Virus record (IMG/VR): IMGVR_UViG_3300020165_000140
Location: 1 to 25,313 of that record
From: a virus
DNA: 25,313 nt
Strand: one strand, 5' to 3'
A program made the position numbers and the translations under genes. The notes beneath the pieces were generated by a model. That model made no database searches, had not been told where the DNA came from, and worked only from the letters and a program-made list of their open reading frames with translations. Positions 1 through 25,313 of this stretch are shown piece by piece; position 1 is the stretch's first letter; each line of letters opens with the position of its first letter.

Positions 1-629
1 GGTAGCCATAACTTTAAAGCGGTGTTATCCACTCCAGTAGGTACGACCTTTTCGGGGTTGTTGTATAGGTCGGCCACTTGTGCGGCGGTTAGGGCGGTGT
101 TGAATAATTTAAAGCCAGCCATCAAACCTTCAGCGTATGAAGATGCCGCAGTATGTTTAAACAAATTCAACAATCCGTTAGCCGTGCTGAAATTAAAAGA
201 TGCGGATATTGAACCGATTGAAACACCATTAATATAACCCTCAAGCGTTGTGCCGTTAAAGGTCATATCAAATTTATTCCATTCGTTTGCCGTTAGCGAT
301 GGCGTTTGTAAAGTGTAAGCGGTTCCGTCATCTAATGTAATCCGTAAAACGCTTAATCCTTGTTCTATTCTTATGTCATCCGTTCCGCTATGTAATAGAG
401 ATACTAAACGCAGTCCGTTGTCGGTTATATTTGCTAACTGAAAATTAAAGGACATTGAAATAGCGGTGTAAGCCGTTACATCTAACGTCCCACAATCAAC
501 ATAATCATTAACCCCATCAAAAGAAAGGGCCTTCCCGCTATAAAGTTTAGCACGATTAAAAGCCAAAGGGCTTTGGTCATTGCCGCGCGGTGAAAACGGC
601 TTATTCACTAAAGTTGTTTGTACTGCCAT
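1..629 (-). CDS. LamG/concanavalin A-like tail adhesin, partial (C-terminus outside window)
   Basis: The reading frame opens with ATG at 629 and stays open to the left window edge (209 codons), so the C-terminus is missing. The product starts MAVQTTLVNKPFSPRGND and then has the hallmarks of a LamG jelly-roll domain: ALSFDGVNDYVDCG (about residues 37-50), NEWNKFDMTFNGTTLEGYING (about 120-140), and a closing helix-like ALTAAQVADLYNNPE. It is followed by LKLWL, the usual start of a following segment in such proteins. LamG folds bind glycans or proteins, and its place at the end of the tail module suggests a receptor-binding or fibre-tip protein. It is a distant paralogue of its upstream neighbour at 646-1356, 16 nt away. 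The LamG fold is quite certain; the role as adhesin is inferred from position. Confidence 0.8.
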   Translation of the reverse strand, partial: MAVQTTLVNKPFSPRGNDQSPLAFNRAKLYSGKALSFDGVNDYVDCGTLDVTAYTAISMSFNFQLANITDNGLRLVSLLHSGTDDIRIEQGLSVLRITLDDGTAYTLQTPSLTANEWNKFDMTFNGTTLEGYINGVSIGSISASFNFSTANGLLNLFKHTAASSYAEGLMAGFKLFNTALTAAQVADLYNNPEKVVPTGVDNTALKLWL

Positions 630-645
630 AATAAAAAAATGTTTT

Positions 646-1356
646 TTAGTTAGCCGTACCGGTGTTCCCGTTACCGCTTGAATCCGGCACGCTTGTGCCG
701 CTTATATCATCCAAAGAATACCACGCCTTAAGGCCGTTTGATTCCGCACCGCTTAATGCTTCGTAGCTTTTCCACATCACGGAATTAATCTCATCGCTTG
801 AAAGTGCGCGGTTCCAAAATGCGACGTTGGCGAGGTTGCCGTCAAACCATTCAGCATCCGAATAGTTTTGTTTGCCTATCGTTGAATCGCTTTCGGTGTT
901 TATCGTTAAACTTACCGAACTCGTTATATTCTCGCTTCCGTTTATATATAGACGCATTGTACTTCCATCATAGGTACCAGTAACGAAAATCCATTCATTT
1001 GGATGCGTTGTAGTTGCGACTATTGACGTACCATTACAAGCGTAAATAGGAGCCTCCGAATAGCGCATATACAACAAAATACCATCGCTTGACGCGTCTC
1101 GGTTATCAAAAATAAATTTACTATTTCCCGTATCATCCGCATAAACCCAAGCCGCTATCGTGTGGTTCGTATGACTGAACGCGTTGTCCGTTTGTATATA
1201 ATCACTCGTCCCGTTGAATTCGGCCGAGCCTTGGGCTGGGAAATTGAGGCCAGCAGTCGTGAACTTGTTAAACATAACCAGTCCATTTTTGATAATTGCC
1301 GAACCCGCGCTGAACAACCCTCTCCGGAGGAGGTAGTAGAATTGAGATTGTTTCAT
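646..1356 (-). CDS. LamG-domain tail protein, probable receptor-binding adhesin
   Basis: This 236-residue protein has a single LamG domain: AEFNGTSDYIQTDN (about residues 45-58) begins the sandwich, HTIAAWVYAD follows, NEWIFVTGTYDGSTMRLYING marks the central strands, and ANVAFWNRALSSDEIN is the typical closing motif. After the domain comes GLKAWYSLDDISG...DSSGNGNTGTAN, which looks like the first strand of another LamG unit but stops there, a common ending in these phage proteins. The first 30 residues are basic and hydrophobic (YYLLRRGLFSAGSAIIKNGLV) and may attach the protein to the tail; no clear signal peptide is needed for a virion protein. It lies between the tail-tip protein and a second LamG gene. 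Host-surface binding is inferred from fold and context. Confidence 0.82.
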   Translation of the reverse strand: MKQSQFYYLLRRGLFSAGSAIIKNGLVMFNKFTTAGLNFPAQGSAEFNGTSDYIQTDNAFSHTNHTIAAWVYADDTGNSKFIFDNRDASSDGILLYMRYSEAPIYACNGTSIVATTTHPNEWIFVTGTYDGSTMRLYINGSENITSSVSLTINTESDSTIGKQNYSDAEWFDGNLANVAFWNRALSSDEINSVMWKSYEALSGAESNGLKAWYSLDDISGTSVPDSSGNGNTGTAN

Positions 1357-1408
1357 TCATCTTCGTCTTTATATGTTTTGTAAAGTTAACTATCAACGCG
1401 TGATCAGA

Positions 1409-3907
1409 TCACTTCTCTTTTTTCTGAATCACAAACCAATCGCCATTCGGCCCGCCCATCAATGTGACACCATCGTAGGGCCTTTGCATTGAGTACGAAT
1501 CTTCGCCATCAATGCGTTCACCCGATTGCGGAGTCAATGAAATGTTTTTGTTTGCGGCGATGGTGTCATCCGTTTTGAATCGCATAATCAATCCCGGTTC
1601 TGATGATGGTAAATTCAATGTGTACGTTCCATTTTCACCACTTGCAAAATCAATGAAGTTGAAATTGTTGGCCGATGATAATGTTTCCGAACCGCTTGGC
1701 GTTCCCGTCACTTCATTCAATGTCACATTCACGCGCCCCGTTGTTGTGAACTCACCAACCGATGTGGCCGCCAGTGTTGAATTGCCAGTGACGCCAAGCG
1801 TTCCGCCCAGCGTTGTGTTGCCGTCAACGTTTGCGTTCGTAGTTACATCAACAGAGTTCAGATCAGCATTCACGGCGTCAATGCCTTCGAATGATGAATT
1901 GCCCGTCAAGCCGTTGACGTTACCGACTGCAATCACATCCGTGATTGTTGTCACATCATCAAACGTTGGCGTGATAGACGCGCGACTTATTGCGAACCAT
2001 TCGCCATCCCATTCATCCGTGTTTGCTGAATACGTTCCGCCCAACTGCACCCAATTCTTTGAATCAAAAACCAATCGTTGACGGAAATCGTGGGAACTAT
2101 AAAAACGCCCCATGTATTTTTGAATCGGTTCATCCATCAGTTTCAAAAATTCTTCACACACCAATCGTTGGATTGTTTTATATGAACCGGAATTCCCTTC
2201 GCGCCAATTCGTGTAAGGAATTTTTATCAATAACCCGCCAACGTTTATTTGCTCCACCAATGAACCGCGTTCACCTTGCCCAGTGAACACACTTGTTTCG
2301 GGCAGTTCATAAGAAATCAATCCATTGACATCAGCGTTTGGCGACACGGCTCGAATTCTTGTTGTTTGATTTTGTATTGAGCCGAATGATGTCGCCACGG
2401 ATTGCAACGTCATCTTGTATGATGACGAATTCCCGACGTTCAATCCACGAACGGAACCATTCGTGTTTACAAAACCAACAAAATCCCAATTGATTGTCAT
2501 GTCGCCATCGGTTGGGATTGGCGGCGTCACAATCGTTGTTGGTCCACCGACTTGAATGACATCGGAATTTCCCAAAGTCACTTGACCGCTAAATTCTTGG
2601 AACGTGCCAACAAAAACTTCGTACCCCGAACCCGATTGTGTTGTGGTCCATACGGGTGTCGATGGTGTCATTCCGCTGAATGTTCTTTTCAAATAGTAGG
2701 TGACGTTGTTGTCAAAATCAAACAATTCAATATTCAATTTTAACTTCGCAAAGATGTTGTTTTGATTAACGTTGACATTTAAAAACAATTTGATTTGGTG
2801 ATTGAACACCAACGTCAATTGATTCTGCAACGCGGATGAAACCAAACCAATCGCCAAGTTCGGGTCAACTCCATTTTTCCACGTCACCCCCTTCATCGCC
2901 TTTGGTTCTTGATTCAATGTGATAGCCACATCATTCACCGCGGGCAAAAAGTTGAAAATATTTCCAGCCAAACGCGCTTTGTTTGACGTTTGGTCGATGG
3001 TCTTGTTGTAAGAAACCGACGCGTTGTCAATCTTTGTTTTGTCCTTCTTGTATTGATGTTGAATCATTGACGATGCGTCACGCTGGAACAATTGTTCCAA
3101 TCGGTATTGGCCGTTTGAATAGTAAAAACGCAACCCGAAAATCGTGCATATTTGTGACAATATTTCAAACCAATTTTTGTTGGTGTAAACACCTTGTTCA
3201 TCAATCGTGTCAAACGCGTGGAAATCAACCCACGTTTCATCCAGCGGATTGTTGTTGGCGTTGTAGGTCATTTCTTGCGCCCACCAGTTCGACACAACGG
3301 CCAACACGGGGTGTTCGCTTCCATATATTCCCAACACACCAACTTGGTCCAATGCGTTGATAAATTGGTTCGTGGATTGTCTAAAGAATGACGTGCCACA
3401 TTTAGTGTCTTTTAACTTTGAAATGCCGTCCGTGGCTTGGATGTTTAGAATGTAAGGTTGCGAAACATCTTCAACTTCAATGATGTCTTGCACGATGTAG
3501 CCACCCCAATGAAAGTCGAGGTACACCATTTGTTCCTCATCGGGTGAAAATGACATCACCAATCCATCGTCGGAAACCTTGCTTGTATTGTACCACGTGT
3601 TGGCATCTTCACCGCTGAATTCACCTTTCCAAATCTTGACGAAATAGCGGTCTTGTTGGTATTGTTTGAGCGTGTTCAAAAACGCGGTTGTTGCTAAATC
3701 TTGAACGTACATTCCAAACGATACCGACGACCCAATGATTGGGGAATATATGTTGTCCGTTTGCCCCGAATAGTTCAATTCAAAACCATCACCCGTGACA
3801 TTGAATTGGTCGGGGTCGGTTCCCGTATATTCGTCGTCCCAAATTTCAATCAAGTAAAAATGTCCGTAGCTACTGCGGAACTCGGAAAAGAGTTTTGGAT
3901 TCGCCAT
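1409..3907 (-). CDS. Large tail-tip/baseplate protein with fibre-like C-terminus
   Basis: This 832-residue protein follows the tape measure gene by 3 nt, the position where siphophages encode distal tail and tail-associated (hub) proteins. The N-terminal ~130 residues (FYLIEIWDDEYTG, IIGSSVSFGMYVQD) look like a baseplate domain known from Bacteroidota phages. The middle is long and beta-rich without a recognisable enzyme motif. Around residues 690-760 the sequence becomes short Gly/Thr/Val-rich repeats (GNTTLGGTLGVTGNSTLAAT) of the kind found in trimeric fibres, ending in a small domain with NGTYTLNLP and PNGDWFVIQKKEK. It probably combines hub and short-fibre functions. No lytic domain is seen. 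Its base composition differs sharply from the tape measure gene: a single GATC occurs in the whole gene apart from those near the stop. Confidence 0.75.
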   Translation of the reverse strand: MANPKLFSEFRSSYGHFYLIEIWDDEYTGTDPDQFNVTGDGFELNYSGQTDNIYSPIIGSSVSFGMYVQDLATTAFLNTLKQYQQDRYFVKIWKGEFSGEDANTWYNTSKVSDDGLVMSFSPDEEQMVYLDFHWGGYIVQDIIEVEDVSQPYILNIQATDGISKLKDTKCGTSFFRQSTNQFINALDQVGVLGIYGSEHPVLAVVSNWWAQEMTYNANNNPLDETWVDFHAFDTIDEQGVYTNKNWFEILSQICTIFGLRFYYSNGQYRLEQLFQRDASSMIQHQYKKDKTKIDNASVSYNKTIDQTSNKARLAGNIFNFLPAVNDVAITLNQEPKAMKGVTWKNGVDPNLAIGLVSSALQNQLTLVFNHQIKLFLNVNVNQNNIFAKLKLNIELFDFDNNVTYYLKRTFSGMTPSTPVWTTTQSGSGYEVFVGTFQEFSGQVTLGNSDVIQVGGPTTIVTPPIPTDGDMTINWDFVGFVNTNGSVRGLNVGNSSSYKMTLQSVATSFGSIQNQTTRIRAVSPNADVNGLISYELPETSVFTGQGERGSLVEQINVGGLLIKIPYTNWREGNSGSYKTIQRLVCEEFLKLMDEPIQKYMGRFYSSHDFRQRLVFDSKNWVQLGGTYSANTDEWDGEWFAISRASITPTFDDVTTITDVIAVGNVNGLTGNSSFEGIDAVNADLNSVDVTTNANVDGNTTLGGTLGVTGNSTLAATSVGEFTTTGRVNVTLNEVTGTPSGSETLSSANNFNFIDFASGENGTYTLNLPSSEPGLIMRFKTDDTIAANKNISLTPQSGERIDGEDSYSMQRPYDGVTLMGGPNGDWFVIQKKEK

Positions 3908-3910
3908 ATA

Positions 3911-6571
3911 TTAAAAACCTCTTTGTCTTGTTCGGTTGCGTGATGCTCTCTCTTGAGAAAGTAGTATGTCTGATCCAGAGATGCGACCAACGACTTCAAC
4001 GCGTTGAGAGCCGTTCCCGCCGTTATTCATGAGCGCATTCAATTTCGAGAGCGGTAGAACTGCTTCTGATTCTCTACCTTCGCCAACGAGCGCAAGAGTC
4101 GGTCCCGTCACAATTCCCCCTTCAGCCAGTGCTGGAATATCACCTTCAGACGCTTTCGACATTTTCGCTCGTATCGCACCAGCGGCCGCGATCATTGCAA
4201 TACCCGCGCCCACTGCTAAAGCGGCGCCCATTGGCGTTGGCCCAGCGGCCAATGCTTTGACAAATGCTTCAACGCTGATCCCGTATTGAATAAACATTCG
4301 CCCAAGTTGATCTAACAACCCAGCAAATGTACCCAGTAAGAAAGATCCCATATCAGCAAATGACGCTTCGCCCATTACCATTGCACCCGCGATCTCTGCC
4401 ATTCCTGCGATTGTGTCGATCGTTGTGCGATGCATGAGTTCAGCAACTGCGTTGTTCAGTTCTTTGTATTTCAAAGCAAATCTCTTTGCTGATTCATATG
4501 CTTTGCGATATGAATGATCGAATTCATCTGCCGCGTCACTTGTGTTCGCAAGATTTTCTTCTGACTTATCGAACCAATCCCCCATGCCATCATAGTTGAT
4601 GTTCGCAAGTCTTTTCAGTTTTTTTTCTGCGTCTTCAGCGCCGTTGCCAAGTCCGTCAAGATCGTCTTCAACTTCTTCAATTTCAACAGAAGCCGTTGCC
4701 ATGCTCGATGCAATCTTGTCAACATTTTCGCCGACTTTCACAACTGCTTTGTTTGCGTTTTTCAAAGCGATTTCTTGAGACTTCAAGATTGCATTTGTAG
4801 CACCGACAGAAGATGCCAATTTTTGTTGTTCTGGTGTAAATTTTTGATAGCTGTTGATCACGTCTTCCAATTCGCCGTCACTAAGAATGCGACCAAATTG
4901 TTCTTTCATTTGAACAGCAAGTTCATCACTGACTGCAAGAGTTTTGTTGAATTGCGTTTGTGCGTCAACTGCTTTCTTTGTGACCGCTGTCATTTCATCT
5001 TGAGCCGCCATCAATGCTATCTTTTTGGCGACTTGTTTGTTCATTTCTCTTTGAGCGGTTGCGATGTCATTTGTCGCGTCTTTTTCATCAATCAGATTCG
5101 GAAGAAGATCACCATATTCCGTGTTTAGTTTCGTGATCAATCTTTTTCTTTGATCTTGCGCGATGTTCTGATCTTGAATCGCATTCATCAACTTGTTCGC
5201 TTGAGTCGTGCGCACTTGAGTTTCTGCAATATCTTTCTTTGCGCCTTCGCTCAATTTGTGCTGTGTTTCAACAACTTCTTTTTTGCGTCTGTTGACTAAC
5301 ATCAAAACAGCGGCGAAGGCTGCCAATCCCGCGATGACAACACCGATCGGATTTGCTGTCAGTGCTAAATTGTACGCTCTTTGAACTGCGGCCGCAATCT
5401 TTGTAACCGTGTTTGATTTGATCATTGCAAATCTCAGAAGACGAACATTTCTGATCAAACCGCCAGTCAAGAACAAAAGCGGACCGGCTGAAGCTAACAA
5501 CGCCGCAAAGACGACAACCGTCTTTTTCACTGCTGGTGAAGCCTTGTTCAATTTACTTGCAAGATTTGCGAATCCTTCAATCAAAGGAACAACGGCTTCT
5601 GCAACAACTTCACCAACAGAGATTCCGAGACCTTCCATTGCTGACTCGAGACGCTTTGAAGCACCGAGAGCGTTGTCGCCCATTTCGTCTGCCATTGATT
5701 TTGCAGAGCCTTTTGCGTTCTCAAACTCTTTCGTCAATGGCTTGATCTGATCAACGCCTTCAGCAAGAATCAAGAGTGCTGATTGTGCTGAACGACCGAC
5801 TTCATCTTTTGCATCAGCGAGACCGATGCCTTTTTCAGCGAGATCTTTCAGTGCTTCAGATGTTGGCTTTCCAGAAGCACCAATCTCTGAGATGATTCTT
5901 CGCAGTGAAGTACCAGCTTGAGAGCCTTTGATACCAGCATTTGCGAGAACAGCCATCATCGCTGATGTTTCTTCAATGCTCATTCCAGCACTTTTTGCAA
6001 CTGGAGCGACAAACTTCATTGAGTTTGCGAATGTCTCCATGTCGAGTGCAGATGTCGAGAACGATTTCGCCATGACATCTGTGACGCGACCAGTTTCTGA
6101 TGCGTCAAGACCGAATGCTCTGAGTGTAGAACCAGCGACTTCTGCCGCTCTTGCGAGATCAGAACCAGATGCTTGAGCGAGAGCGAGAGTTCCTTCAGTG
6201 ACTTTTGTGATCTCTGTTGCACTGAAACCGAGTTTTGCGAACTCTGTTTGAAGAGACGCTACTTCTCGAGCAGTGAACATTGTTGAAGAGCCTAATGCTT
6301 TCGCATTGTCTGAAAGCATTTTGAACTCTTCTGCTGTTGCACCAGAGATCGCTTTGACTTTTGACATCTCTGCTTCAAATCCTTTGAAGACATTAAAAGA
6401 GACAGCACCAAGAGCAACAAGTGGCGCAGTCAGTTTCATCGACATATTTTTGCCGGTTGCCTGCATCTTCTTGCCGAGTCGATCCATTGATCGCTCTGCT
6501 TTTGTCAGCCCTTTTTTGAATGGCGCGATGTTTGCCGTTAGGCGAAAATTAAGACTTGAGAGATTGGCCAT
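3911..6571 (-). CDS. Tail tape measure protein (TP901-type)
   Basis: The 886-residue product spans the inside of the tail tube and sets its length. Residues 1-60 form a charged amphipathic start (FKKGLTKAERSMDRLGKKM), and about 60-250 match the TP901 tape-measure core (FEAEMSKVKAISGATAEEF, ASLQTEFAKLGFSATEI, ANAGIKGSQAGTSLRRIISEIG). Hydrophobic stretches lie near 345-370 (VVVFAALLASAGPLLFLTGG), 404-425 and in the Ala/Gly-rich region near 790-815. Helical, charged sequence fills the rest. By the general rule of about 0.15 nm per residue, the tail would be roughly 130 nm, which is an estimate only. The start overlaps the end of the frameshifted chaperone frame by 23 nt, the usual arrangement. 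The gene is rich in GATC tetramers, about 25 by my count. Confidence 0.95.
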   Translation of the reverse strand: MANLSSLNFRLTANIAPFKKGLTKAERSMDRLGKKMQATGKNMSMKLTAPLVALGAVSFNVFKGFEAEMSKVKAISGATAEEFKMLSDNAKALGSSTMFTAREVASLQTEFAKLGFSATEITKVTEGTLALAQASGSDLARAAEVAGSTLRAFGLDASETGRVTDVMAKSFSTSALDMETFANSMKFVAPVAKSAGMSIEETSAMMAVLANAGIKGSQAGTSLRRIISEIGASGKPTSEALKDLAEKGIGLADAKDEVGRSAQSALLILAEGVDQIKPLTKEFENAKGSAKSMADEMGDNALGASKRLESAMEGLGISVGEVVAEAVVPLIEGFANLASKLNKASPAVKKTVVVFAALLASAGPLLFLTGGLIRNVRLLRFAMIKSNTVTKIAAAVQRAYNLALTANPIGVVIAGLAAFAAVLMLVNRRKKEVVETQHKLSEGAKKDIAETQVRTTQANKLMNAIQDQNIAQDQRKRLITKLNTEYGDLLPNLIDEKDATNDIATAQREMNKQVAKKIALMAAQDEMTAVTKKAVDAQTQFNKTLAVSDELAVQMKEQFGRILSDGELEDVINSYQKFTPEQQKLASSVGATNAILKSQEIALKNANKAVVKVGENVDKIASSMATASVEIEEVEDDLDGLGNGAEDAEKKLKRLANINYDGMGDWFDKSEENLANTSDAADEFDHSYRKAYESAKRFALKYKELNNAVAELMHRTTIDTIAGMAEIAGAMVMGEASFADMGSFLLGTFAGLLDQLGRMFIQYGISVEAFVKALAAGPTPMGAALAVGAGIAMIAAAGAIRAKMSKASEGDIPALAEGGIVTGPTLALVGEGRESEAVLPLSKLNALMNNGGNGSQRVEVVGRISGSDILLSQERASRNRTRQRGF

Positions 6572-7228
6572 GCTTTAGTTTTGCGCGTTCGTTTCTTTTG
6601 TTTATGACATCAATGATCTCTCCTTTCGTCCAGATATTGTGCTTTTTGTTTTTACTCTCCCAAGGAAAGACAATCAAATCTCTTGCCTTGATCGATTTCT
6701 TTGTGTGAACATTCAACAGAAGCGTTGTTTGCCAACGCGTTCTTTCCCATTCACTTTGTTCTTTTCTATTCTCTCGCTCATTGAATCCGCTGACTAAATT
6801 TGTCCACTCTCTCGGAAGCAAATCATAAAATTCAAAAGGTCTGAGCCCAATCTGGCCGAACGCGAATGATTCGAGATCGTCCCAAGTCGCTTTCTTTTTG
6901 TTGTGATCGCGTCGGCCTATTTCTTTTTTTCTGACTTCGTGCTGTATTGTTCTTCAAAAACAGCAAACACTTTTTCAATCAGTTCTTCATCTTCGTCAAT
7001 CCAATCTGCAATATCTGCAACGTCATAGCGAAAATGTATTTTCTCTTTTCTTGCCCCATCTTTGAAACCGCAAAACATGAGCGTGATCGCTTGATCAAGT
7101 GTCATGTCATTGCCTAAGTCTTCAAGTTGTGACAAAGTTGTTCCAGTCATTTTACTGAATTCGCGAAGTGCATTGAACCCAAATCTGACTGCGTGTTTTC
7201 TTTCGTTTGTTTCTATTATCTGAACCAT
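6549..7228 (-). CDS. Tail assembly chaperone, long form made by -1 ribosomal frameshift (G-T type fusion)
   Basis: Reading starts at 7228 in the 103-codon frame and, after slipping back one base at 6929-6923, continues in the -1 frame to the stop at 6549, giving about 226 residues. The -1 frame is open immediately past the slip: EIGRRDHNKKKATWDDLE, then SFAFGQIGLRPFEFYDLLPREW, the Gly-Leu-x-Pro-x-Glu-Phe...Pro-Arg-Glu signature of C-terminal T domains in tail chaperones. The N-terminal G part binds tape measure protein and the T part recruits major tail protein; the long form is made in small amounts. The 90-codon frame at 6549-6821 has only a TTG as possible start and its first residues lie inside the conserved motif, so it is not a separate gene. 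Position between major tail protein and tape measure is canonical. Confidence 0.88.
6854..6917 (-). promoter_or_regulatory. Candidate frameshift-stimulating RNA stem
   Basis: On the minus strand GGCCGACGCG (6917-6908) is complementary to CGCGTTCGGCC (6864-6854) apart from one bulged base, giving a 10-bp GC-rich stem around a loop of about 43 nt. It begins 5 nt after the slippery heptamer, within the 5-9 nt distance usual for stimulatory structures. The pairing is seen directly; its effect on frameshifting is inferred. Confidence 0.65.
6917..7228 (-). CDS. Tail assembly chaperone, short form (G protein)
   Basis: This is the unshifted product of 103 residues. It begins MVQIIETNERKHAVRFGFNALREFSKMTG, a pattern seen in the N-terminal domain of tail assembly chaperones encoded just before the tape measure gene, and ends in an acidic helix and a Lys tail (STKSEKKK). 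It keeps the tape measure protein soluble and helps tail tube polymerisation. The lysine codons at the end, GAA AAA AAG AAA TAG, form the slippery site. It is separated from the major tail protein gene by an intrinsic terminator, which would lower its level compared with the structural protein. The start has the A/C-rich leader AACAACATCAACAAAT in place of a Shine-Dalgarno site. Confidence 0.9.
   Translation of the reverse strand: MVQIIETNERKHAVRFGFNALREFSKMTGTTLSQLEDLGNDMTLDQAITLMFCGFKDGARKEKIHFRYDVADIADWIDEDEELIEKVFAVFEEQYSTKSEKKK
6923..6929 (-). promoter_or_regulatory. Programmed -1 frameshift slippery heptamer A_AAA_AAG
   Basis: In the frame of the short chaperone the codons are GAA AAA AAG AAA TAG, which contains the heptamer A AAA AAG in the correct phase for simultaneous -1 slippage of both tRNAs. 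This is the same heptamer as in E. coli dnaX. The zero-frame stop follows one codon later. The -1 frame then encodes the conserved T domain without interruption. A stem begins 5 nt downstream (see 6854-6917). Confidence 0.9.
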
Positions 7229-7244
7229 ATTTGTTGATGTTGTT

Positions 7245-7272
7245 AAAAAGAGAGCATCTCTCGATGCTCTCT
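7245..7272 (-). terminator. Intrinsic terminator after the major tail protein gene
   Basis: On the minus strand AGAGAGCATC, loop GAGA, GATGCTCTCT form a perfect 10-bp stem with a GNRA-type tetraloop, followed by TTTTT. It starts 13 nt after the major tail protein stop codon. It would limit transcription into the chaperone and tape measure genes. A second hairpin of the same design lies at 13874-13897. Confidence 0.9.
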
Positions 7273-7285
7273 CTGTTGTTTAGTA

Positions 7286-7723
7286 TTAAGCGACAGACGC
7301 TTGAGTCAATACGCCAGTTCCGGTAAATCCGAACGAGTATGTCACGTTTTCTTCAACCCCCGCTTCTTGTTCGTAGCTTACGAGATACGCGTCGCCAGTG
7401 TAGTCAATCTCACCACTTGTTTCAGAACCGAATTTCACTTTCACAAGTGTACGGTTTGACAACAAAGTAAACAGATCGTCTGGTGTGTCGTAATCTCCAG
7501 AGATTGAGTAGGTGACAAGTCCGTCGCCACTAAGTGACCACGCTTTGAGACCTTCAAGATTCTCTTGCCATCCAGAAGAGTCTTTTGTAGTTGTGTCGCG
7601 TGTCTCCATTGAAACACTTAATGATGCCGATGTTGCACGGCCGATGATGTCGTAAGTTGTTCCGCCATCTTCGCTGATTTGAATCACAACGTCAGTTGAG
7701 TTCATGATGCTTGTTGCAGCCAT
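7286..7723 (-). CDS. Major tail (tube) protein
   Basis: The 145-residue product resembles TP901-1-type major tail proteins, which polymerise into the tail tube. Typical elements are the N-terminal DVVIQISEDGGTTYDIIGRATSASLSVSMET, followed by RDTTTKDSSGWQENLEGLKAWSLSGDGLVTY, the conserved 'distinguish the tag' loop and central strand pair of the family, and the C-terminal VEENVTYSFGFTGTGVL. The start has a long A-rich leader (AATAAAATAAAAACAAAAGAAAATG), consistent with strong translation in Bacteroidota. The gene sits directly after the tail completion gene and is followed by an intrinsic terminator, as expected for an abundant structural protein. Confidence 0.9.
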   Translation of the reverse strand: MAATSIMNSTDVVIQISEDGGTTYDIIGRATSASLSVSMETRDTTTKDSSGWQENLEGLKAWSLSGDGLVTYSISGDYDTPDDLFTLLSNRTLVKVKFGSETSGEIDYTGDAYLVSYEQEAGVEENVTYSFGFTGTGVLTQASVA

Positions 7724-7754
7724 TTTCTTTTGTTTTTATTTTATTATTCAATTA

Positions 7755-8144
7755 TTAATCAAGTGAAACGCGAAATATCAAATCTACTTGAGAAGAGAAA
7801 GTTCTTTCGTCATCACTAAACAAATCGCGCTCACCGTCGAATGAGCATGATTGTACTTTAATGCTTTCAATCGTTTCATTCATGCGAACGAATGCGCTTC
7901 TAATATACGAAACTGCGTTCTGCGTGTCAGCATATGAAGTCGAAACAATTGTCACTCTGACATTCATTTCATCGAGATGTGAGTCGCTGTCTTTTGAACG
8001 CTGTGCGTCATTGACAACAATCTCATAAATCGCGAAAGGATGTTGTGCTGTTTGCGCGCCAACGAGTGGATAGACTCTACCGCTGAACAAAGTGTTCAGA
8101 TCAGAATCATTGTCAAACTTGTATTTGATGACCTTACCAATCAT
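7755..8144 (-). CDS. Tail terminator/completion protein (DUF3168-like)
   Basis: This 129-residue protein has the features of the DUF3168 tail-completion family (lambda gpU-like terminators): LFSGRVYPLVGAQTAQHPFAIYEIVV early, then a central MNVRVTIVSTSYADTQNAVSYIRSAF with paired strand and helix, and a C-terminal strand FSSQVDLIFRVSLD. Such proteins cap the finished tail tube and join it to the head. The start codon overlaps the stop of the gp10-like gene upstream by ATGA, suggesting coupled translation, and the next gene downstream is the major tail protein, the order normal for siphophages. Confidence 0.85.
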   Translation of the reverse strand: MIGKVIKYKFDNDSDLNTLFSGRVYPLVGAQTAQHPFAIYEIVVNDAQRSKDSDSHLDEMNVRVTIVSTSYADTQNAVSYIRSAFVRMNETIESIKVQSCSFDGERDLFSDDERTFSSQVDLIFRVSLD

Positions 8145-8704
8145 TTGAGTGACGCTTTTACTTGTTTATCAAGAAACGCTTTCATCAGAGACTTGAATGT
8201 TGTTCTGACGAGAGAGAGCCCTCCTTTTTTTGCTTTTTCAGCAAAGCCAAAGTTGGCTCCTTTGACATATTCTCCGTACTTATTGATGAATCCGTATTCA
8301 ACAAAGTGAGCAAACCAACCACCTTTTTCTGGATCAGAATATCTGCCTTTCACTCTCGCACCTACTGAGAGCGAAGAGAAAGTCTGATGTTTTCTGACTC
8401 GCGTGTTGATGATACCGATCGACTTCTTGAGTGTGCCTTTCGGTATCTCTGCATACACACCGCCGTATCTGTACACTTTGAAACTTGATTCATCAGTGAT
8501 GTTCGCTTTGAAACGCGCCACCATAGGCTTCAGAGACGCTCTCTGAACTTTTCTGATGTCTTTAGTCTGAACACTATTCGCAAGAGCGTCAAGCTCTTTA
8601 AATGCACGTTGAAACTCACGCATGAGAACGTCTTCTTCAAAACCAATGAAGTTCTTGCCTTTGACAGAACTTCTCGACATCATTCTTTCAGCAGTTGTTC
8701 CCAT
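8141..8704 (-). CDS. HK97 gp10-like head-tail/tail completion protein
   Basis: The 187-residue product resembles the HK97 gp10 family found between the head closure and tail terminator proteins. Visible family features are the N-terminal helix with FKELDALANSV, a basic central part (RASLKPMVARFKANI), GTLKKSIGIINTR, and near the end the conserved WFAHFVEYGF motif followed by a helix (KAFLDKQVKASLK). The precise function in the virion is unsettled for the family; a role in joining head to tail or in tail completion is the usual view. It lies 2 nt after the head closure gene and overlaps the next gene by 4 nt. Confidence 0.85.
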   Translation of the reverse strand: MGTTAERMMSRSSVKGKNFIGFEEDVLMREFQRAFKELDALANSVQTKDIRKVQRASLKPMVARFKANITDESSFKVYRYGGVYAEIPKGTLKKSIGIINTRVRKHQTFSSLSVGARVKGRYSDPEKGGWFAHFVEYGFINKYGEYVKGANFGFAEKAKKGGLSLVRTTFKSLMKAFLDKQVKASLK

Positions 8705-8706
8705 GA

Positions 8707-9030
8707 TCAGTCTGTGAGTCTTGTCTCAATACGTTGAAAAGAATCTCTTGATTCATCGCTGATGATCGCTTCAATTTTGTACGTCTTATTGTTGTAGACG
8801 ATCCGCATCTGTTCATTGATGTCTGATCGATAGCGAATGAAAAAATGTACTTTTTTCACTGCAACGAGTTGATCAGACTGCTCATTTTCAGATCCAGACT
8901 TTTCAACGACTCTTGACCATACTGAAGCAAGTGTTGTGAACGACTTGTTGAGTTGTCCAAATGCATCAGTTGAAGACGTAAACGTCTGAAGCGTGATTCG
9001 TCTATCAAGTTGTCCAGCTTGTTTGATCAT
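8707..9030 (-). CDS. Head closure/head-tail adaptor protein (SPP1 gp16-like)
   Basis: I place the start at 9030 (MIKQAGQLDRRITLQTF, 107 residues), where TGATG joins it to the stop of the upstream connector gene by one base. A start ten codons upstream at 9060 would overlap that gene by 31 nt and adds nothing conserved. The sequence GQLDRRITLQ...DAFGQLNKSFTTLASVWSRVVEKSGSE...FFIRYRSDINEQMRIVYNNKTYKIEAI is typical of the head-tail joining family that closes the portal channel after DNA packaging and provides the tail docking surface. Context between connector and gp10-like genes fits. Confidence in family is high, in exact start moderate. Confidence 0.88.
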   Translation of the reverse strand: MIKQAGQLDRRITLQTFTSSTDAFGQLNKSFTTLASVWSRVVEKSGSENEQSDQLVAVKKVHFFIRYRSDINEQMRIVYNNKTYKIEAIISDESRDSFQRIETRLTD

Positions 9031-9599
9031 CAGAATGTGAAGATTCTGTACGGGTTCCATAAATACTCTGAAGCAGTCGGCAATCTCTTCACGCTGTCAG
9101 CGCGTTGATCGTAAAGATCAGAGATGACGAGCATCATTCCTTGAATCAACGGTTTTGGAATCGCTGAGACATCTGTGCCGACGACGTATCTGACGATCAC
9201 TTGATTCACTACACCAGCAGCCGCAAACCAACCAGCAGTTGATTGCACTCTTGCGGGTTCTGAGATCAAGTCAGTCACATACTGATCAGAAGTCAATGAG
9301 ACTTCAGATCCAATTTCATCGACATACTTGACTGAAGATATTGAAGTGACTGGTCCTCTTGACAGATAAATCAGATTTGACAAGTTGTTCCATGAATTTG
9401 TAGGGAACTTGTCAAAATATTCATCAATTGTCGTGCTGACAAGAATTCTTCTTGTGTACTCTTCACACATCTGTCGAGACGCAGTGATCAAAGCATTGAT
9501 CAAGCTGTCGTCATCTGAGTGATCAACACGCAAAAAGTTCTTTGCTTCAGCAAGAGTGATTGGCTCAGAGGCCGCCGCAGTTACAATATCAAATGCCAT
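9030..9599 (-). CDS. Head-tail connector protein (HK97 gp6-like)
   Basis: The 189-residue product begins with the connector signature EPITLAEAKNFLRVDHSDDDSLINALITASRQMCEEYTRR (written here across residues about 13-52), an all-helical domain that forms a ring below the portal. The rest contains strands (DEYFDKFPTN, LIYLSRGPVTSISSVKYVD) and a final helix (IPKPLIQGMMLVISDLYDQRADS), both normal for longer gp6 homologues. It lies between a small basic protein gene and the head closure gene. Position and sequence agree, so the call is firm. Confidence 0.9.
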   Translation of the reverse strand: MAFDIVTAAASEPITLAEAKNFLRVDHSDDDSLINALITASRQMCEEYTRRILVSTTIDEYFDKFPTNSWNNLSNLIYLSRGPVTSISSVKYVDEIGSEVSLTSDQYVTDLISEPARVQSTAGWFAAAGVVNQVIVRYVVGTDVSAIPKPLIQGMMLVISDLYDQRADSVKRLPTASEYLWNPYRIFTF

Positions 9600-9602
9600 T
9601 GT

Positions 9603-9794
9603 CTATCGTGTTTCCTTTTTCGTTGTTTTCTTGACTGCTTTCTTTGCGCGTGTCTTCGCTGGTTCAGCGATCACTTCACAAAACTTTGCATTCAAGAAGT
9701 CGAGCGCCATCTCTTCTGAATGGAGCTCCACTACCGCATCTTTGCGATAGTGGAATCCATTTCCAGAGACAGATTTCAAAAATCTGACTTTCAT
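9603..9794 (-). CDS. Small basic protein of the head module, unknown function
   Basis: This 63-residue protein sits 2 nt after the capsid gene and 3 nt before the connector gene. Its first two-thirds (MKVRFLKSVSGNGFHYRKDAVVELHSEEMALDFLNAKFCEVI) look like a small beta-rich domain with a following helix, and its end is a Lys/Arg/Ala/Thr-rich tail (AKTRAKKAVKKTTKKETR). Small proteins of this layout are common directly after HK97 capsid genes in Bacteroidota phages. The basic tail could contact packaged DNA or another virion protein, but this is a guess. Tight spacing on both sides supports a real gene. Confidence 0.75.
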   Translation of the reverse strand: MKVRFLKSVSGNGFHYRKDAVVELHSEEMALDFLNAKFCEVIAEPAKTRAKKAVKKTTKKETR

Positions 9795-9796
9795 GA

Positions 9797-10996
9797 TTAG
9801 GCTTGAGCCAAGTATTTCACTGCACGAGTGTCAAGAACTTTTGAGTCCTTACGAGCATATGAAACAAATCCTACCTCGAGTTCATCCATGTAACGCTCAT
9901 TCAAACGTACCATCTGAACACCACCAGCAGAGCGAACAACAAACTTGCTGAAGTCAGCCGCCAACAATGTTTTCTTGCCAGTCGTAATTGCTGACTCCAT
10001 ATCGTTGTTATAGTAGATGTTATATCCGAACAACTTGTCTGGCTGTCCCGCTTCCATTGAAGGAATAAAGATCGGGAAGTCATTTGCAGAGCCAAGACCT
10101 AAAGCACGAATGGCCGCGATCACGTTGTCGTGAGCCATAAGACCGAATGTTGGCTTGTTGCGGTAGCTTGGATCGATGCTGTGAATCAAGTCAAGGATGT
10201 CATCAGCCGCGATTGCAGTTGCAGAGGCCGCAGTGTTTCCTAAACTTGCGCCAGTGATGATCCCTTGTGGTTGGCTTGAGCCAGTTCCGCTTGTGAATAC
10301 ACCGTTTGTTGCACGAGCGATTCTTTCACCCATTGCTTCAGCAAGGAAAGAATTCAAATCGAATGCGTTGTCTTGTAGCAACTGCATTGAAACGCGCACT
10401 TGGCTTGCGTAGTTGTAGGCACTCAACTGAGCGTTTGCGAATGTCATGTCTTGAACGGTTACAGCCGCCGCTTCAGCAGTTAAACCAGCATCCGTTGCAG
10501 TGTCGTTAATTGTTGGGTAATCCAACAATGCGCCACCAGCAGTGTTCAATTTCTTTGCAAGACGCTCAACTTCACCAGTGAACAATGTCGCCATGTCCAA
10601 CTCGTTTGAGAACTCTTGAGGCACAAGGAAACCGCCTAAGGAATCGGTCCCAGCTACCTGCGTAGAAGTACCTCTCATTTCAGCCATCATGTTGCGCTCT
10701 TCAGCGTTTAATGATCCCATGCCAGAGCGTAGGTACTTGCCGAACGCTTCAGTGCGTGTTGCTTTCGGAGATGCTTGACGCGCCTCAGTATTTGCAGCCA
10801 ATTCTTTTTTCATCTCAGCGGCACGCTCAAGCGTATCGATCTGATCTTTGATGCCTCTTGCATCTGCTTCCATTTTGTCGAATTTCGACTTTTCTTCAGC
10901 GTTCAATGAACGTCCTTCTTTTTGAGCGATCTCAACGATTTCCGTTGCATTTTTGATCAACTCAGCGCGTTGTCCGCGTAGTTCGATGTTTTTCAT
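9797..10996 (-). CDS. Major capsid protein (HK97 fold) with N-terminal scaffolding domain
   Basis: The 399-residue product has a charged coiled-coil N-terminus (about residues 1-105: LRGQRAELIKNATEIVEIAQ, KSKFDKMEADARGIKDQIDTL) that corresponds to the delta scaffolding domain of HK97 gp5, cut off by the protease encoded next door. The mature capsid likely begins near GTSTQVAGTDSLGGFLVPQEF. Typical HK97 elements follow: an E-loop/N-arm region, QLSAYNYASQVRVSMQLLQDN, the spine helix AFDLNSFLAEAMGERIARATN, FTSGTGSSQPQGI and the C-terminal EVGFVSYARKDSKVLDTRAVKYL. Exact cleavage site is not visible from sequence alone. It lies 6 nt downstream of the protease gene. Confidence 0.95.
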   Translation of the reverse strand: MKNIELRGQRAELIKNATEIVEIAQKEGRSLNAEEKSKFDKMEADARGIKDQIDTLERAAEMKKELAANTEARQASPKATRTEAFGKYLRSGMGSLNAEERNMMAEMRGTSTQVAGTDSLGGFLVPQEFSNELDMATLFTGEVERLAKKLNTAGGALLDYPTINDTATDAGLTAEAAAVTVQDMTFANAQLSAYNYASQVRVSMQLLQDNAFDLNSFLAEAMGERIARATNGVFTSGTGSSQPQGIITGASLGNTAASATAIAADDILDLIHSIDPSYRNKPTFGLMAHDNVIAAIRALGLGSANDFPIFIPSMEAGQPDKLFGYNIYYNNDMESAITTGKKTLLAADFSKFVVRSAGGVQMVRLNERYMDELEVGFVSYARKDSKVLDTRAVKYLAQA

Positions 10997-11002
10997 CTTT
11001 TT

Positions 11003-13855: not shown

Positions 13856-13873
13856 TTTGTTTTTATTTTAATA

Positions 13874-13897
13874 AGAGAGCGACTCGCGTCGCTCTCT
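13874..13897 (-). terminator. Hairpin of the same design as the terminator at 7245-7272
   Basis: On the minus strand AGAGAGCGAC, loop GCGA, GTCGCTCTCT form a perfect 10-bp stem with a GNRA loop. It begins 10 nt after the stop at 13908 and is preceded by the same AACAACAG flank as the copy at 7245-7272. The upper stem differs from that copy by compensating changes (ATC/GAT against GAC/GTC). The following T-run is broken (TTATTAAAAT), so it may be a weak terminator or an mRNA 3'-end stabiliser. Confidence 0.7.
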
Positions 13898-13907
13898 CTG
13901 TTGTTTC

Positions 13908-21398: not shown

Positions 21399-22016
21399 TC
21401 AAAGTCCTTTGATCTCTTTTTCATACTTGCTCAACTTACTGAAAAATTTAATATACTCAGCGAACGTCTCGTTGAGTTGTTCTTGTATCTCTTCACGCGT
21501 AATTCTTACAACATGCAGATCTTTCTGATCAAAGCGCGGATCATACGAAACAAAATCAAGATACTGCAATGTTTCAATCACAATGAAGTAGTGAAAGATC
21601 TGGTGTTTGTATTCGTTCGGCATCTTATTCTGTCGCATGTATTCGACGTGCTTTCTTGATGAAGGACATTTGATCTCAACTGCACCGACAGCGATATTGT
21701 TCTCAAAAATCAATGCATCTGGCGACACGGCGAGCCAATCGTATTTGTCGTGCATACAATAGCCAACTTCTGTTGCATTGCTGTTCGTGCGTTCGTTGTA
21801 TGTCTTCAATGCTTCTGGCTCAAACAATATGCCATGCTCCATGAATTTTGACGTGTACGTCTCTTCAATGATTCTCGTCATTCTCTCAGCGATCAGTTCA
21901 TCGATGAATGAGAGATTGTTTGATTTGAAGATGTTCTTTGCGCGTGAGCCAGTGATGACACCGAGTCGTGCTTTGAACCATTCTTCAGATCGTTGCTGTA
22001 GTTCTAATATTTTCAT
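21399..22016 (-). CDS. YqaJ/lambda-type exonuclease for recombination
   Basis: The 205-residue product starts with LQQRSEEWFKARLGVITGSRAKNIF (6-30), the conserved N-terminus of the YqaJ/lambda exonuclease family. The nuclease centre is visible as WLAVSPDAL (Asp100), GAVEIKCPS (Glu114, Lys116), with the upstream Glu in GILFEPEALKTY (Glu66 or Glu68). Such enzymes resect double-strand ends 5' to 3' and work with a single-strand annealing protein, which I do not see in this window. The start directly abuts the stop of the preceding small gene (TAAATG), suggesting coupling. Confidence 0.92.
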   Translation of the reverse strand: MKILELQQRSEEWFKARLGVITGSRAKNIFKSNNLSFIDELIAERMTRIIEETYTSKFMEHGILFEPEALKTYNERTNSNATEVGYCMHDKYDWLAVSPDALIFENNIAVGAVEIKCPSSRKHVEYMRQNKMPNEYKHQIFHYFIVIETLQYLDFVSYDPRFDQKDLHVVRITREEIQEQLNETFAEYIKFFSKLSKYEKEIKGL

Positions 22017-22377: not shown

Positions 22378-23214
22378 TCATTTCAGCTTGATCATCTTCA
22401 TGTTGTAATTGTCAACGCCTTTGCTGACGATCTGATCGTAGTTGTCAACGCGCTGAAGTTTCTGTTTAAATACAGAGTAGTTGACTTCATGGTGCCAACG
22501 CTCGTATCGCCAAACGACTTTCACAAGATCTGGATGTTGCTCTCTTAAACTCTCAGCGAAGTCGCGTCTGTTGTTTGAGTCAGCGTACACTTCTTCTGTA
22601 TTGCCGCCTTTCATCTTGAGCGTTCCGATCTTATCACAGAAGAACGCATTGAAGAGCAGTGTGCAGTGATCGTCTTTCAAGATACGCAATGAGAGATCAG
22701 TGTCTTCGTTGTACTTACCGCGCCATCGATGCTCGATGTCGTTGCTCAGTAGAATGCAAGAGTAGATTCTTGTGTTCATCATGTACGGCTTTCTCGTTGA
22801 TCCTTCTGGAACAAAGAAGCGATAATTCATTCCGCTCATCTTTACGTTCTCGTATCTATCTGTGAAGTCTTCAACGGCTCTGAACGTCGCTGATGTTTTC
22901 ACTTTGATCTTTCTGTTGTTGTTGAGACGACCGAAGCCAGAGATGTTGTCGTCAAGAATCCAGTGTCTTTTGTGTCCTTCTGAAATGCTGTGTTCCCAAA
23001 CCCAGTTTCGTGCTGGTATTGAGCCTTGCCCTAAGTTACTGAACGGTAGTACTAAGATCTTCGCTTCATCAATCACTGAAGCATAGTCATCGAACTCTTG
23101 TGCTTCGATCACAATGCGATAGTTGATGCCGATGTCTTCAAGTGCTTTCGCTGTGAGTCGAGATTCGTGACGACCTTTGCTGATGATGTAGATTGGATAT
23201 TTTGTCTGTTTCAT
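22378..23214 (-). CDS. Phage glycosyltransferase, TET-associated glycosyltransferase (TAGT)-like
   Basis: The 278-residue protein has the pattern I associate with the TAGT family of phage glycosyltransferases: PIYIISKGRHESRLTAKALE (7-26), VIEAQEFDDYASVI (35-48), LVLPFSNLGQGSIPARNWVW (54-73) and HWILDDNISGF (84-94), in which Asp88-Asp89 resemble the nucleotide-sugar/metal-binding acidic pair of GT-A folds. YNEDTDLSLRIL (168-179) holds the second acidic site. Some TAGT enzymes are predicted to glycosylate modified pyrimidines in DNA; a virion or surface target is also possible. No hydroxylase or hydroxymethyl-pyrimidine synthase is visible in this window. The start overlaps the neighbouring small gene by ATGA, so both are likely made together. 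Confidence 0.72.
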   Translation of the reverse strand: MKQTKYPIYIISKGRHESRLTAKALEDIGINYRIVIEAQEFDDYASVIDEAKILVLPFSNLGQGSIPARNWVWEHSISEGHKRHWILDDNISGFGRLNNNRKIKVKTSATFRAVEDFTDRYENVKMSGMNYRFFVPEGSTRKPYMMNTRIYSCILLSNDIEHRWRGKYNEDTDLSLRILKDDHCTLLFNAFFCDKIGTLKMKGGNTEEVYADSNNRRDFAESLREQHPDLVKVVWRYERWHHEVNYSVFKQKLQRVDNYDQIVSKGVDNYNMKMIKLK

Positions 23215-23776: not shown

Positions 23777-23778
23777 GA

Positions 23779-23982: not shown

Positions 23983-23996
23983 TGTTCTTGTTTTTA
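23969..23996 (-). repeat. 28-bp repeat covering leader and start codons, copy 1
   Basis: The minus-strand sequence TAAAAACAAGAACA-ATG-ACAACAACAGA is identical to 24631-24658. It contains the stop of the methyltransferase gene, the A-rich leader and the first four-plus codons of the 67-residue protein (MTTTE). It probably acts as a strong translation start element and the repeat may have spread by duplication. Confidence 0.85.
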
Positions 23997-24644
23997 TTTT
24001 TTTATGAATGCGCTGTTTGTGTCCCAGCCGTTTTTAAATGTAGGCAATTTGATTGCAGGTACAAAGCCATGATCTTGTAGTTCTTCGATCATCAGATTCG
24101 CTCTTGATCGCCAATCAAAACCGCTCATCGGATGAAACTCAAGAATGATTGCTCTCAAATTTGGCTGAATGATATTGTAAGAATATTCCGCTCCTTCAAC
24201 ATCGATCTTCACAACTGAAGCGTCTTTGACTGCATCTTCATATCTGATCGCTTCAACAATCACGCTCTCATGCTTTCGTGAAGATTTGACGATTGAGTTT
24301 GTTGCTCCAATACCATTTGAAAGATGAAGTTCAACTTGTTGAGAGTCATCGCCTACAACAGCGAGATTCATCATCGTTGTATTTTCTCTTTCGTTCATCT
24401 TGAGAACTTCAAAAGTAACTGGTGACGCTTCGAATGCGTTGACGTGCTTTGCGAATCTTGACGCATAGAGAGCGTATTCTCCGACATATGCACCAATATC
24501 CGCGACGATATCGTCTTTGTGAAGATCAATTGAATACGCGCTTTTCATTGGGTTTTGGAAAGCATTGTTGCTCTTTGTGTTTTTCAATGCGTAATGACCG
24601 AGAGTGTGTTTGTTCTCGATGAACACTTTTTCTGTTGTTGTCAT
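23994..24644 (-). CDS. FkbM-family methyltransferase
   Basis: The 216-residue product has the class I SAM-binding motif VADIGAYVGEYALY (47-60), the acidic strand end FEASP (71-75), a central MMNLAVVGDDSQQVELHLS, and the FkbM hallmark VVKIDVEGAE (144-153), followed by AIILEFHPM. These enzymes usually methylate sugar hydroxyls, so modification of a glycan or of a glycosylated base made with the nearby glycosyltransferase is a reasonable idea, yet unproven. The start is MTTTEKVFIENKHTLGHYAL at the 28-bp repeat. Eleven nt separate it from the preceding gene. Family assignment is firm, substrate unknown. Confidence 0.9.
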   Translation of the reverse strand: MTTTEKVFIENKHTLGHYALKNTKSNNAFQNPMKSAYSIDLHKDDIVADIGAYVGEYALYASRFAKHVNAFEASPVTFEVLKMNERENTTMMNLAVVGDDSQQVELHLSNGIGATNSIVKSSRKHESVIVEAIRYEDAVKDASVVKIDVEGAEYSYNIIQPNLRAIILEFHPMSGFDWRSRANLMIEELQDHGFVPAIKLPTFKNGWDTNSAFIKK

Positions 24645-24859: not shown

Positions 24860-24989
24860 CTATGGTGTAGAGTTTGCGATCAACTATGAACTGACATATA
24901 TAGCTGTCTGATTTTTGTTTTTTGACCCATGCTGTGACATCATTCTCGTGAAGCATCAGCGAGATCTTGAATGCGTCATGTTGTTTCAT
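24831..24989 (-). CDS. Small protein, 52 residues, unknown function
   Basis: ATG at 24989 to TAA at 24831 encodes MKQHDAFKISLMLHENDVTA..., with WVKKQKSDSYICQFIVDRKLY, which looks like paired strands. It fills an otherwise empty 116-nt stretch and overlaps the gene before it by 14 nt and the gene after it by 29 nt. No family recognised. It is short, so the call is moderate. Confidence 0.6.
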   Translation of the reverse strand: MKQHDAFKISLMLHENDVTAWVKKQKSDSYICQFIVDRKLYTIDESTEQLFS

Positions 24990-25313
24990 TCATCTTTGTT
25001 CTGAGTTGCGTGAATGCAATCTTGTACTTGTTGAGATCTTTCACTTGTTTCTGTAAAGACTTCAACTGCTTCTCTGATTCTGCAAGTACGTCGTTGAGAT
25101 CGTCAACAATTATTTTGTGACGCTCAAGTTCTTCACGCACGTTCAGAATTGCATTGTACTGATCGAACTTCTTCTCTTTGATTAGATTGCTCACGAAATC
25201 ATACACAGCACAATACAGATCAAAGTGCTTGAGACGCTGTTCAACGACAACGTGATACTTGTGTTCGTGTTGTCGTGTTGAATAGATGATTGTTGAGTGA
25301 TCCATATCAAAGC
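24976..25313 (-). CDS. DnaA domain IV-like protein with coiled-coil C-terminus, partial
   Basis: The frame is open to the right window edge (FD before the first visible Met), so the true start is probably outside. The visible N-terminus MDHSTIIYSTRQHEHKY matches the DnaA domain IV signature (G/x-x-DHST-V/I-x-Y/H-A/S), which in DnaA contacts the DnaA box. Afterwards comes FDLYCAVYDFVSNLI and a long coiled coil (LNVREELERHKIIVDDLNDV, AESEKQLKSLQKQVKDLNKY). Short phage proteins with a DnaA-like C-terminal helix-turn-helix are known in Bacteroidota; they may bind an origin or hijack host initiation. No ATPase domain is visible here. Confidence moderate because only the signature part is seen. Confidence 0.6.
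   Translation of the reverse strand, partial: FDMDHSTIIYSTRQHEHKYHVVVEQRLKHFDLYCAVYDFVSNLIKEKKFDQYNAILNVREELERHKIIVDDLNDVLAESEKQLKSLQKQVKDLNKYKIAFTQLRTKMNETT

Follow-up and report, generated by a model that had tools for sequence, protein, structure and literature searches.

Why should a phage genome that is rich in the word GATC nearly lose it across one of its ends? The question is raised by the window, by which we mean the whole stretch of 25,313 bases analysed here (IMG/VR virus record IMGVR_UViG_3300020165_000140, positions 1-25,313), in which all recognised genes lie on the minus strand. Its relatives were drawn from IMG/VR viral contigs and are given L-numbers. The first 3.9 kb carry a gene for a tail-tip protein and two for LamG adhesins, and sequence comparison indicates that the tail-tip gene was very probably imported from phages that almost wholly avoid GATC, and joined to the tape-measure gene within a shared 30-nt patch. 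With it go LamG adhesins of like composition. The features concerned are these:

1409..3907, minus strand: tail-tip (central-fibre) protein of 832 aa, very probably the imported gene; it holds one GATC and no ACCGT/ACGGT, and its codon usage departs from that of the window's own clade
646..1356, minus strand: LamG (concanavalin A-like) adhesin; PF13385, E 6.3e-24; no GATC
3..629, minus strand: second LamG-type adhesin, truncated by the contig end; PF13385, E 6e-14; no GATC, codon usage unlike that of the window's own clade
1400..1412, no strand: palindrome in the sequence, overlapping the tail-tip stop codon and carrying two of the three left-side GATC
3908..3937, no strand: homology switch seen in 30-nt identity bins, covering the final 27 nt of the tape-measure gene plus the 3 bases that separate it from the tail-tip start
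3911..6571, minus strand: tape-measure protein of 886 aa; PF10145, phrog_1533; GATC-rich (25)

A step in composition and a switch in homology at one gene border

GATC occurs three times in positions 1-3907 (at 1402, 1407 and 1861), where 14.7 would be expected from base composition, 13.7 from dinucleotides and 15.0 from trinucleotides. The following 21,406 bases (3908-25313) hold 214, with 26 in 3908-6620 and 25 in the tape-measure open reading frame (ORF); the binomial P-value for the step is 2.8e-12. A sequence-only reading of this DNA had reported three GATC on the left, two of them in the palindrome, about 25 in the tape-measure gene and frequent occurrence up to the right end, with a break at the border between tape measure and tail tip. 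Our counts agree with it, and the best change point falls at 3970 (log-likelihood gain 26.2; maximum over 2,000 uniform re-placements 12.7). The windowed statistics that it proposed as a check likewise place a step at the border, in GATC, in k-mers and in codon usage. Among 3.9-kb blocks taken every 500 bases the first is the most deviant for 2-, 3- and 4-mers, and codon shares differ between left and right (Arg AGA 0.15 vs 0.45; Ile ATC 0.23 vs 0.60; Leu TTG 0.49 vs 0.27).

When each gene's protein and codon counts were held fixed and synonymous codons permuted (codon shuffle), the tail-tip gene had 1 GATC vs 9.8 expected, whereas the tape measure had 25 vs 11.9, the gene for the terminase large subunit (TerL) 23 vs 12.5 and the primase gene 24 vs 11.3. 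Amino acids or codon usage therefore do not account for the shortage of GATC on the left or for its excess on the right. The two LamG ORFs (0 vs 1.2 and 0 vs 0.7) are too short for significance singly. The codon likelihood, which sets usage in GATC-free phages against that of the window's clade, flips at the same border: it reaches +134 nats (+134.3) for the tail-tip gene and +15.7 and +27.8 for the LamG genes, is negative for all 13 other window genes scored, and is near zero in the tape measure for its middle and its C-terminal part. A second word, ACCGT/ACGGT, also changes (left 0 vs 6.6 expected; right 17 vs 17.9 expected), whereas CAGG/CCTG is avoided on both sides of the border without a step (left 0 vs 14.6; right 5 vs 60.3). 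CTAG is absent from the whole window (about 20 expected). In the body of the window the excess of GATC is accompanied by excesses of TCAA, TGAA, ATCA and AAGA, a broader shift.

Similarity to the relatives switches at this border. Identity of the window to seven GATC-free contigs (L008, L009, L002, L007, L024, L010 and L033) is 36-80% over the five 30-nt bins that precede the border bin (46-63% in the nearest), 90-100% in the border bin and the next three save for one at 93% or more, and 63-100% beyond. The pattern is opposite with GATC-rich L052: 100% in the five bins before the border and 90% in the border bin, after which identity falls to 50% and 36%. The border bin itself (window 3908-3937, query 2635-2664) is at least 90% identical in 15 of 16 aligned contigs, so that the crossover cannot be placed more finely within it. 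An abrupt change of identity at a gene border is one mark of an exchanged tail-tip module. For its tape measure the window's kin are GATC-rich L052 (98%) and, over part of the gene, L058 and L068. For its tail tip they are GATC-free L002, L008 and L009, whose proteins are 81-85% identical to the window's; the tail tip of L002 has 90% of 330 residues in common with it, and the last 819 nt of the gene are 95.6% identical between the two. The palindrome at the tail-tip end is present only in the window, L001 and L003 among 20 ends compared (the window and 19 loci), and the history of the module is therefore partly shared by the window and L003.

The trees are in conflict as well. The sequence-only reading had suggested comparing the phylogeny of the tail tip with those of capsid and terminase; this was carried out in part, with trees of tail tip, tape measure and capsid. 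In the N-terminal tape-measure tree the window, L003 and L052 come together with 100/100 support, the tape measure of L003 being close to the window's only over the first ~1.6 kb. The N-terminal tail-tip tree separates the same three phages: a joint group is rejected (approximately unbiased [AU] test, P-value 2.6e-96), as is a group of the window and L052 alone (AU P-value 2.9e-18), and three phages with grouped tape-measure N-termini bear three different tail tips. By path, the nearest to the window in the tail-tip tree are L009 (GATC-free), L005 (intermediate) and L008 (GATC-free). L052 and GATC-free L023 have tail tips with 92.7% DNA identity over 1,400 nt and tape measures with 53%. A clade of the five GATC-rich contigs (the window, L003, L052, L074 and L076) is rejected in the tail-tip tree and also in the tape-measure tree; therefore tape measures move too, that of L074 lying among those of GATC-free phages. 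The tail-tip tree also differs from the capsid tree, in which the window stands with GATC-rich L094.

The 832-aa protein matched no Pfam and no PHROG family at 1e-3, and tblastn at 1e-3 gave no match among 50,697 phage records. AlphaFold modelled it poorly (mean pLDDT 50.2), though the last ~100 residues came out better. Fold matches of ~100 residues were obtained to tailspike TSP4 and to baseplate proteins of the T4 type, and the lambda central-fibre protein gpJ was a weak match. These predicted folds, together with the position after the tape measure, support the label of tail tip. The LamG assignments score 85.3 and 52.9 bits (curated cut-off of PF13385, 27.6), and the tail-tip and adhesin part probably recognises the bacterial host.

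GATC regimes of the relatives and the probable cause of GATC loss

Scans of viral contigs with window genes found 51 relatives for the tail tip, 26 for the tape measure, 24 for TerL and 11 for the primase; for the capsid, the best 80 of 144 confirmed relatives were taken. Two of the genes used lie in the body of the window:

9797..10996, minus strand: major capsid protein; PF05065; grouped by its tree with that of GATC-rich L094
14722..16275, minus strand: TerL, GATC-rich; PF20441/PF03354

The GATC-free relatives (17 tail-tip loci pooled) hold 1 GATC vs 814 expected. Some of the other relatives carry 8-15 GATC per kb, like the body of the window, and others about 1 per kb or something in between. 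Mapped on the capsid tree (90 rows), the GATC-free label has to change 11 times, five of these changes being forced by well-supported branches, which means that GATC regimes toggle between relatives. A library artefact is not the reason, because GATC-free contigs are spread over many data sets and a single data set can contain both kinds: data set 3300025880 contains GATC-rich L003 and L072 and GATC-free L063, and data set 3300020187 contains L001, GATC-rich with the imported tail tip, and GATC-free L022. In L127, L128 and L215 GATC is about twofold above the codon-shuffle expectation, and an all-tetramer comparison in L128 and L215 sets it well apart from other tetramers, as if it were selected for.

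Further words are avoided in these phages. ACCGT/ACGGT, which is not palindromic, occurs 8 times vs 360 expected in the pooled GATC-free loci and is missing from both body and tail tip of GATC-free L002, L008, L009, L017, L018, L019 and L061; its near-total avoidance in many relatives toggles independently of that of GATC (L123-L133 and the pooled GATC-free loci). The two avoidances are uncoupled in one direction in L123 and L124 and in the other in L125 to L128. CAGG/CCTG is avoided in most contigs counted, the exceptions being L005, L006 and the body of L013.

Avoidance extends to several unrelated words, and that of GATC is uncoupled from that of ACCGT; restriction therefore explains the GATC-free genomes most economically, and we consider it their probable cause. 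Depletion beyond codon and amino-acid expectation, as found here, is one sign of restriction-site avoidance. For 46 phages with hosts that encode the matching Type IIM enzymes, Rusinov et al. (2018) report a GATC compositional bias below 1 in every case (PMC6286503). GATC is under-represented there as it is here; by comparison, avoidance in the present phages is near-absolute, toggles between relatives, exists alongside GATC-rich sister lineages and is carried in an imported gene.

The main rival to restriction accepts that the import is real and holds that the donors became GATC-free by evading mismatch repair directed by Dam, or some other function that binds GATC, an argument made for phiX174. 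That phage has no GATC, and restoring sites reportedly lowered its mutation rate eightfold (PMC5014478). The complete lack of GATC in phiX174 resembles that of the GATC-free relatives; on the other hand, the phages considered here are tailed and avoid several words. Mismatch-repair escape leaves unexplained the avoidance of ACCGT/ACGGT and of CAGG/CCTG in the GATC-free genomes (CAGG/CCTG is avoided in GATC-rich ones too), and avoidance of GATC and of ACCGT separates in some contigs. We regard it as unlikely.

With restriction preferred as the reason, events could have run as follows. The donors would have purged GATC because the hosts through which they pass cut it, by means of a GATC-specific restriction enzyme, methyl-dependent or not, and the recipient lineage would tolerate the word. 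During co-infection the shared 30-nt patch may have offered a foothold for homologous recombination, and the resulting swap of tail tips would alter the range of cells to which the phage adsorbs. The imported gene would be too young to have regained GATC, and would for that reason keep the donor's pattern of words. The sequence-only reading had proposed that the adhesin module was probably taken from a phage under different host or restriction pressure. Its first half is supported by the 81-85% identity to GATC-free tail tips, the 30-nt switch and the conflict of trees; for its second half we infer restriction as the likeliest cause.

Tailed phages are known to exchange genes for tail fibres and receptor-binding proteins as modules (mosaicism), and the window resembles such cases in that tail-tip and adhesin genes were swapped at a gene border between related phages. 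Unlike the usual case, the donor and recipient pools are here in opposite regimes for a single word, so that composition shows the swap with no reference needed. A literature search by title and start of abstract, with most subscription journals outside its scope, found no report of tail modules being exchanged between sister phages of which some lack GATC and others are rich in it. How often genes pass between wild phages, and in which direction, is hard to measure; where two pools differ by an almost all-or-none word, imported stretches are labelled in the sequence, and GATC regained after import could act as a clock.

Tail tips, LamG genes and the bodies of their genomes

Tail-tip matches were found in 70 contigs. 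Minimum lengths of 2 kb for body genes and 0.9 kb for the tail tip, with a minimum identity of 28%, were reached by 51; removal of L001 and L006 as copies left 49 for comparison. GATC densities of tail tip and body are correlated (rho 0.83, inflated by kinship), and 43 contigs show no difference at a P-value <0.01. The window is the strongest of the six exceptions, with 1 GATC in 2,499 nt vs 120 in 11,451 (P-value 1.7e-9), followed by L013 (P-value 1.8e-7) and L052 (P-value 5e-4); L043, L025 and L038 would fail correction for 49 tests, and L043 is reversed, its tail tip being the richer in GATC. In other GATC-rich contigs the tail tips carry 7-17 GATC per kb (L074, from 975 nt only; L076; and L127, L140 and L144, which are distant at 33-38% identity to the window's). 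Lack of GATC is therefore not intrinsic to the tail-tip gene.

These homologues bear on the idea that the unusual amino acids of tail-tip and adhesin proteins would leave such genes short of GATC with no transfer at all. The proteins of the left genes contain much Thr, Asn, Gly and Ser and little Lys, Glu and Arg, and the LamG gene is GATC-free in every locus read (below). For the tail tip, amino-acid composition and codon usage were rejected as the whole cause, given its 1 GATC vs 9.8 with protein and codon counts fixed and the homologues that bear GATC; moreover, the tree and the identity profile shift at the same place. We find an explanation by gene-specific composition alone highly improbable. 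Least credible of all is an assembly chimera, for although the window is a metagenomic contig and its border lies in a patch near-identical between lineages, L001, another contig, is 99.8% identical to it over 6,001 nt spanning the border, with few differences, and L052 makes the same type of switch, to another tail tip, at the same gene border.

Of the 24 relatives found for the LamG gene, 21 loci were read (L257-L276 without L275, L026 and L031; several are partial, and three very short matches were left unread), and all are GATC-free whatever the regime upstream. GATC lies upstream in 17 of them, two being near-copies; the codon-shuffle expectations of the other 16, one of which is L001, the window's own phage, sum to ~28, a figure overstated through kinship. 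Since LamG is GATC-free everywhere it was read, its lack of GATC alone indicates no particular donor.

Several observations weigh against a simple import from one GATC-free donor driven by restriction. The tail-tip gene is itself mosaic, so that 'one donor' is a simplification, and among the contigs found none but L001 is near-identical across the whole gene. L005, whose GATC is intermediate, is among the three nearest rows in the tail-tip tree; the tail tip of L003 is also intermediate (9 GATC vs 14.8-15.6 expected), and GATC-intermediate genomes fit the codon usage of the window's tail tip nearly as well as GATC-free ones (+123.5 vs +134.3). Codon usage of the LamG genes is fitted better by low- and intermediate-GATC genomes than by GATC-free ones, and their lack of GATC in 21/21 loci means that the left-side deficit may partly belong to the LamG gene pool. 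L123 and L124, GATC-free, do contain ACCGT/ACGGT.

Similar stretches are seen elsewhere. GATC-rich L003 holds two GATC-free stretches (4633-6536 and 6865-10195), the second of which stops soon after a homing-endonuclease gene; this NUMOD3 gene (L003:9430-10002) sits at the right edge of the GATC-free adhesin island. In L005 the tail tip contains GATC, which is then absent from 7939 to 12829. In L139 the first GATC comes at 5286, within the tape measure, and this regime switch inside a gene (4800-5300) marks another visible exchange point. After its adhesins L003 continues with the NUMOD3 gene, an amidase gene and further genes before a DnaA-type gene and an exonuclease gene, an order from which it follows that some kilobases are missing from the window.

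Candidate modification genes and GATC richness

Towards its right end the window has a variable slot between an exonuclease gene and a DnaA-type gene (21399-25305; corresponding stretches are L003:14935-16074, L170:5151-7558 and L221:8344-9183). Its features are:

21399..22016, minus strand: exonuclease, one border of the slot; phrog_149
22378..23214, minus strand: TAGT glycosyltransferase, a candidate DNA-modification gene within the slot; PF20691, E 1.5e-47
23994..24644, minus strand: FkbM-type methyltransferase adjoining TAGT; PF05050, E 4.1e-10
24976..25305, minus strand: DnaA-type helix-turn-helix protein at the contig end, the slot's other border; recognised via its L003 homologue

The DnaA-type protein has no Pfam match of its own, and the L003 homologue (13728-14219) matches PF08299. 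TAGT (TET-associated glycosyltransferase) scores 162.7 bits (PF20691 cut-off 27.5). In a report on T6-like phages, TAGT is described as the likely second glucosyltransferase of their DNA (PMC13390438). The window resembles that system in its strong PF20691 match; by contrast, a scan of its proteins, several small ORFs lying outside the scan, turned up neither a hydroxymethylase nor a TET partner.

We hypothesise that GATC richness is linked to the genes of this slot, which by their sequence are candidate DNA-modification genes. For comparison, 80 loci were reduced to 75, which with the window and L003 made 77 examined; 49 entered the test, and 28 were left out because the slot was uncovered, the phage was the same as another row (L070), a marker was lacking or the relationship was distant. 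A listed candidate gene lies in the slot of 14 of 17 GATC-rich contigs vs 0 of 32 others, with labels picked after the data had been seen (13 of 17 without L221). The 14 comprise four with TAGT, six with an ATPase-GNAT fusion (split into two ORFs in L071), one with a PAPS-reductase-like protein (L221; phrog_424, no Pfam match) and three with a thymidylate-synthase-like protein and an asparagine-synthase-like amidotransferase. Within the window's clade the content of the slot switches several times, yet it is always of one listed kind (11/11).

Other facts speak against such a link. The tree shows a single change between having and lacking a slot gene, which amounts to one independent contrast, and three contigs, L215, L219 and L224, are rich in GATC although they bear no listed gene. 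In the GATC-free contig L231 the slot contains a C5-cytosine DNA methylase (PF00145; 7001-7831), which was counted as 'none'. Among the 28 left out, L003, L070 and L240 would agree, and L210 (GATC observed/expected 0.76), with a helicase-N6/N4 DNA methylase ORF upstream of the exonuclease, disagrees if methylases count. L206 (0.39) has a marginal methyltransferase-like ORF in the slot, and the thymidylate synthases of low-GATC L209, L212 and L238 lie beyond the DnaA-type gene, outside the slot. TAGT, which occurs in 5 of 50 records, was rejected as sole cause of GATC richness, since L003, L071, L167, L168, L171 and L172 are GATC-rich with the ATPase-GNAT fusion instead, and L215, L219 and L224 with no listed gene. 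A D12-class (Dam-type) methyltransferase was rejected as the explanation of tolerance, PF02086 being found in 0 of the 50 records, many of which are fragments.

We entertain, as a doubtful proposal, that the slot holds interchangeable DNA-modification systems whose carriers tolerate or enrich GATC while many non-carriers purge it. Adhesins that cross both pools would meet the stricter rule and hence be GATC-free, and the window would be a modified-DNA phage with the tail tip of an unmodified one. Our confidence in this proposal, small before, was lowered slightly because of the methylase in the slot of GATC-free L231. Two questions can now be tested: does DNA modification release phage genomes from having to avoid words, and must mobile adhesin genes obey the strictest restriction regime that they meet?

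No tRNA was found in the window or in 15 relative loci. A Shine-Dalgarno-like motif precedes 2 of 31 window gene starts, and random 20-mers score no lower (6%). A scan of genome contigs gave a single match, a fragment of this phage group with runs of N in a WOR-3 metagenome-assembled genome (MAG) deposited as a chromosome (locus L189, CP070686.1); it is probably mis-binned, and WOR-3 was not taken as the host. Among the ten best viral fold matches, obtained with a weak model, the sole phage with a named host was a Cellulophaga phage (structural protein), and our guess from that match and from the scarcity of Shine-Dalgarno-like motifs would be a host among the Bacteroidota. The right part of the window also encodes, by profile scans, tail tube, protease, portal and primase, and the GATC-rich phage of the window is a siphophage.

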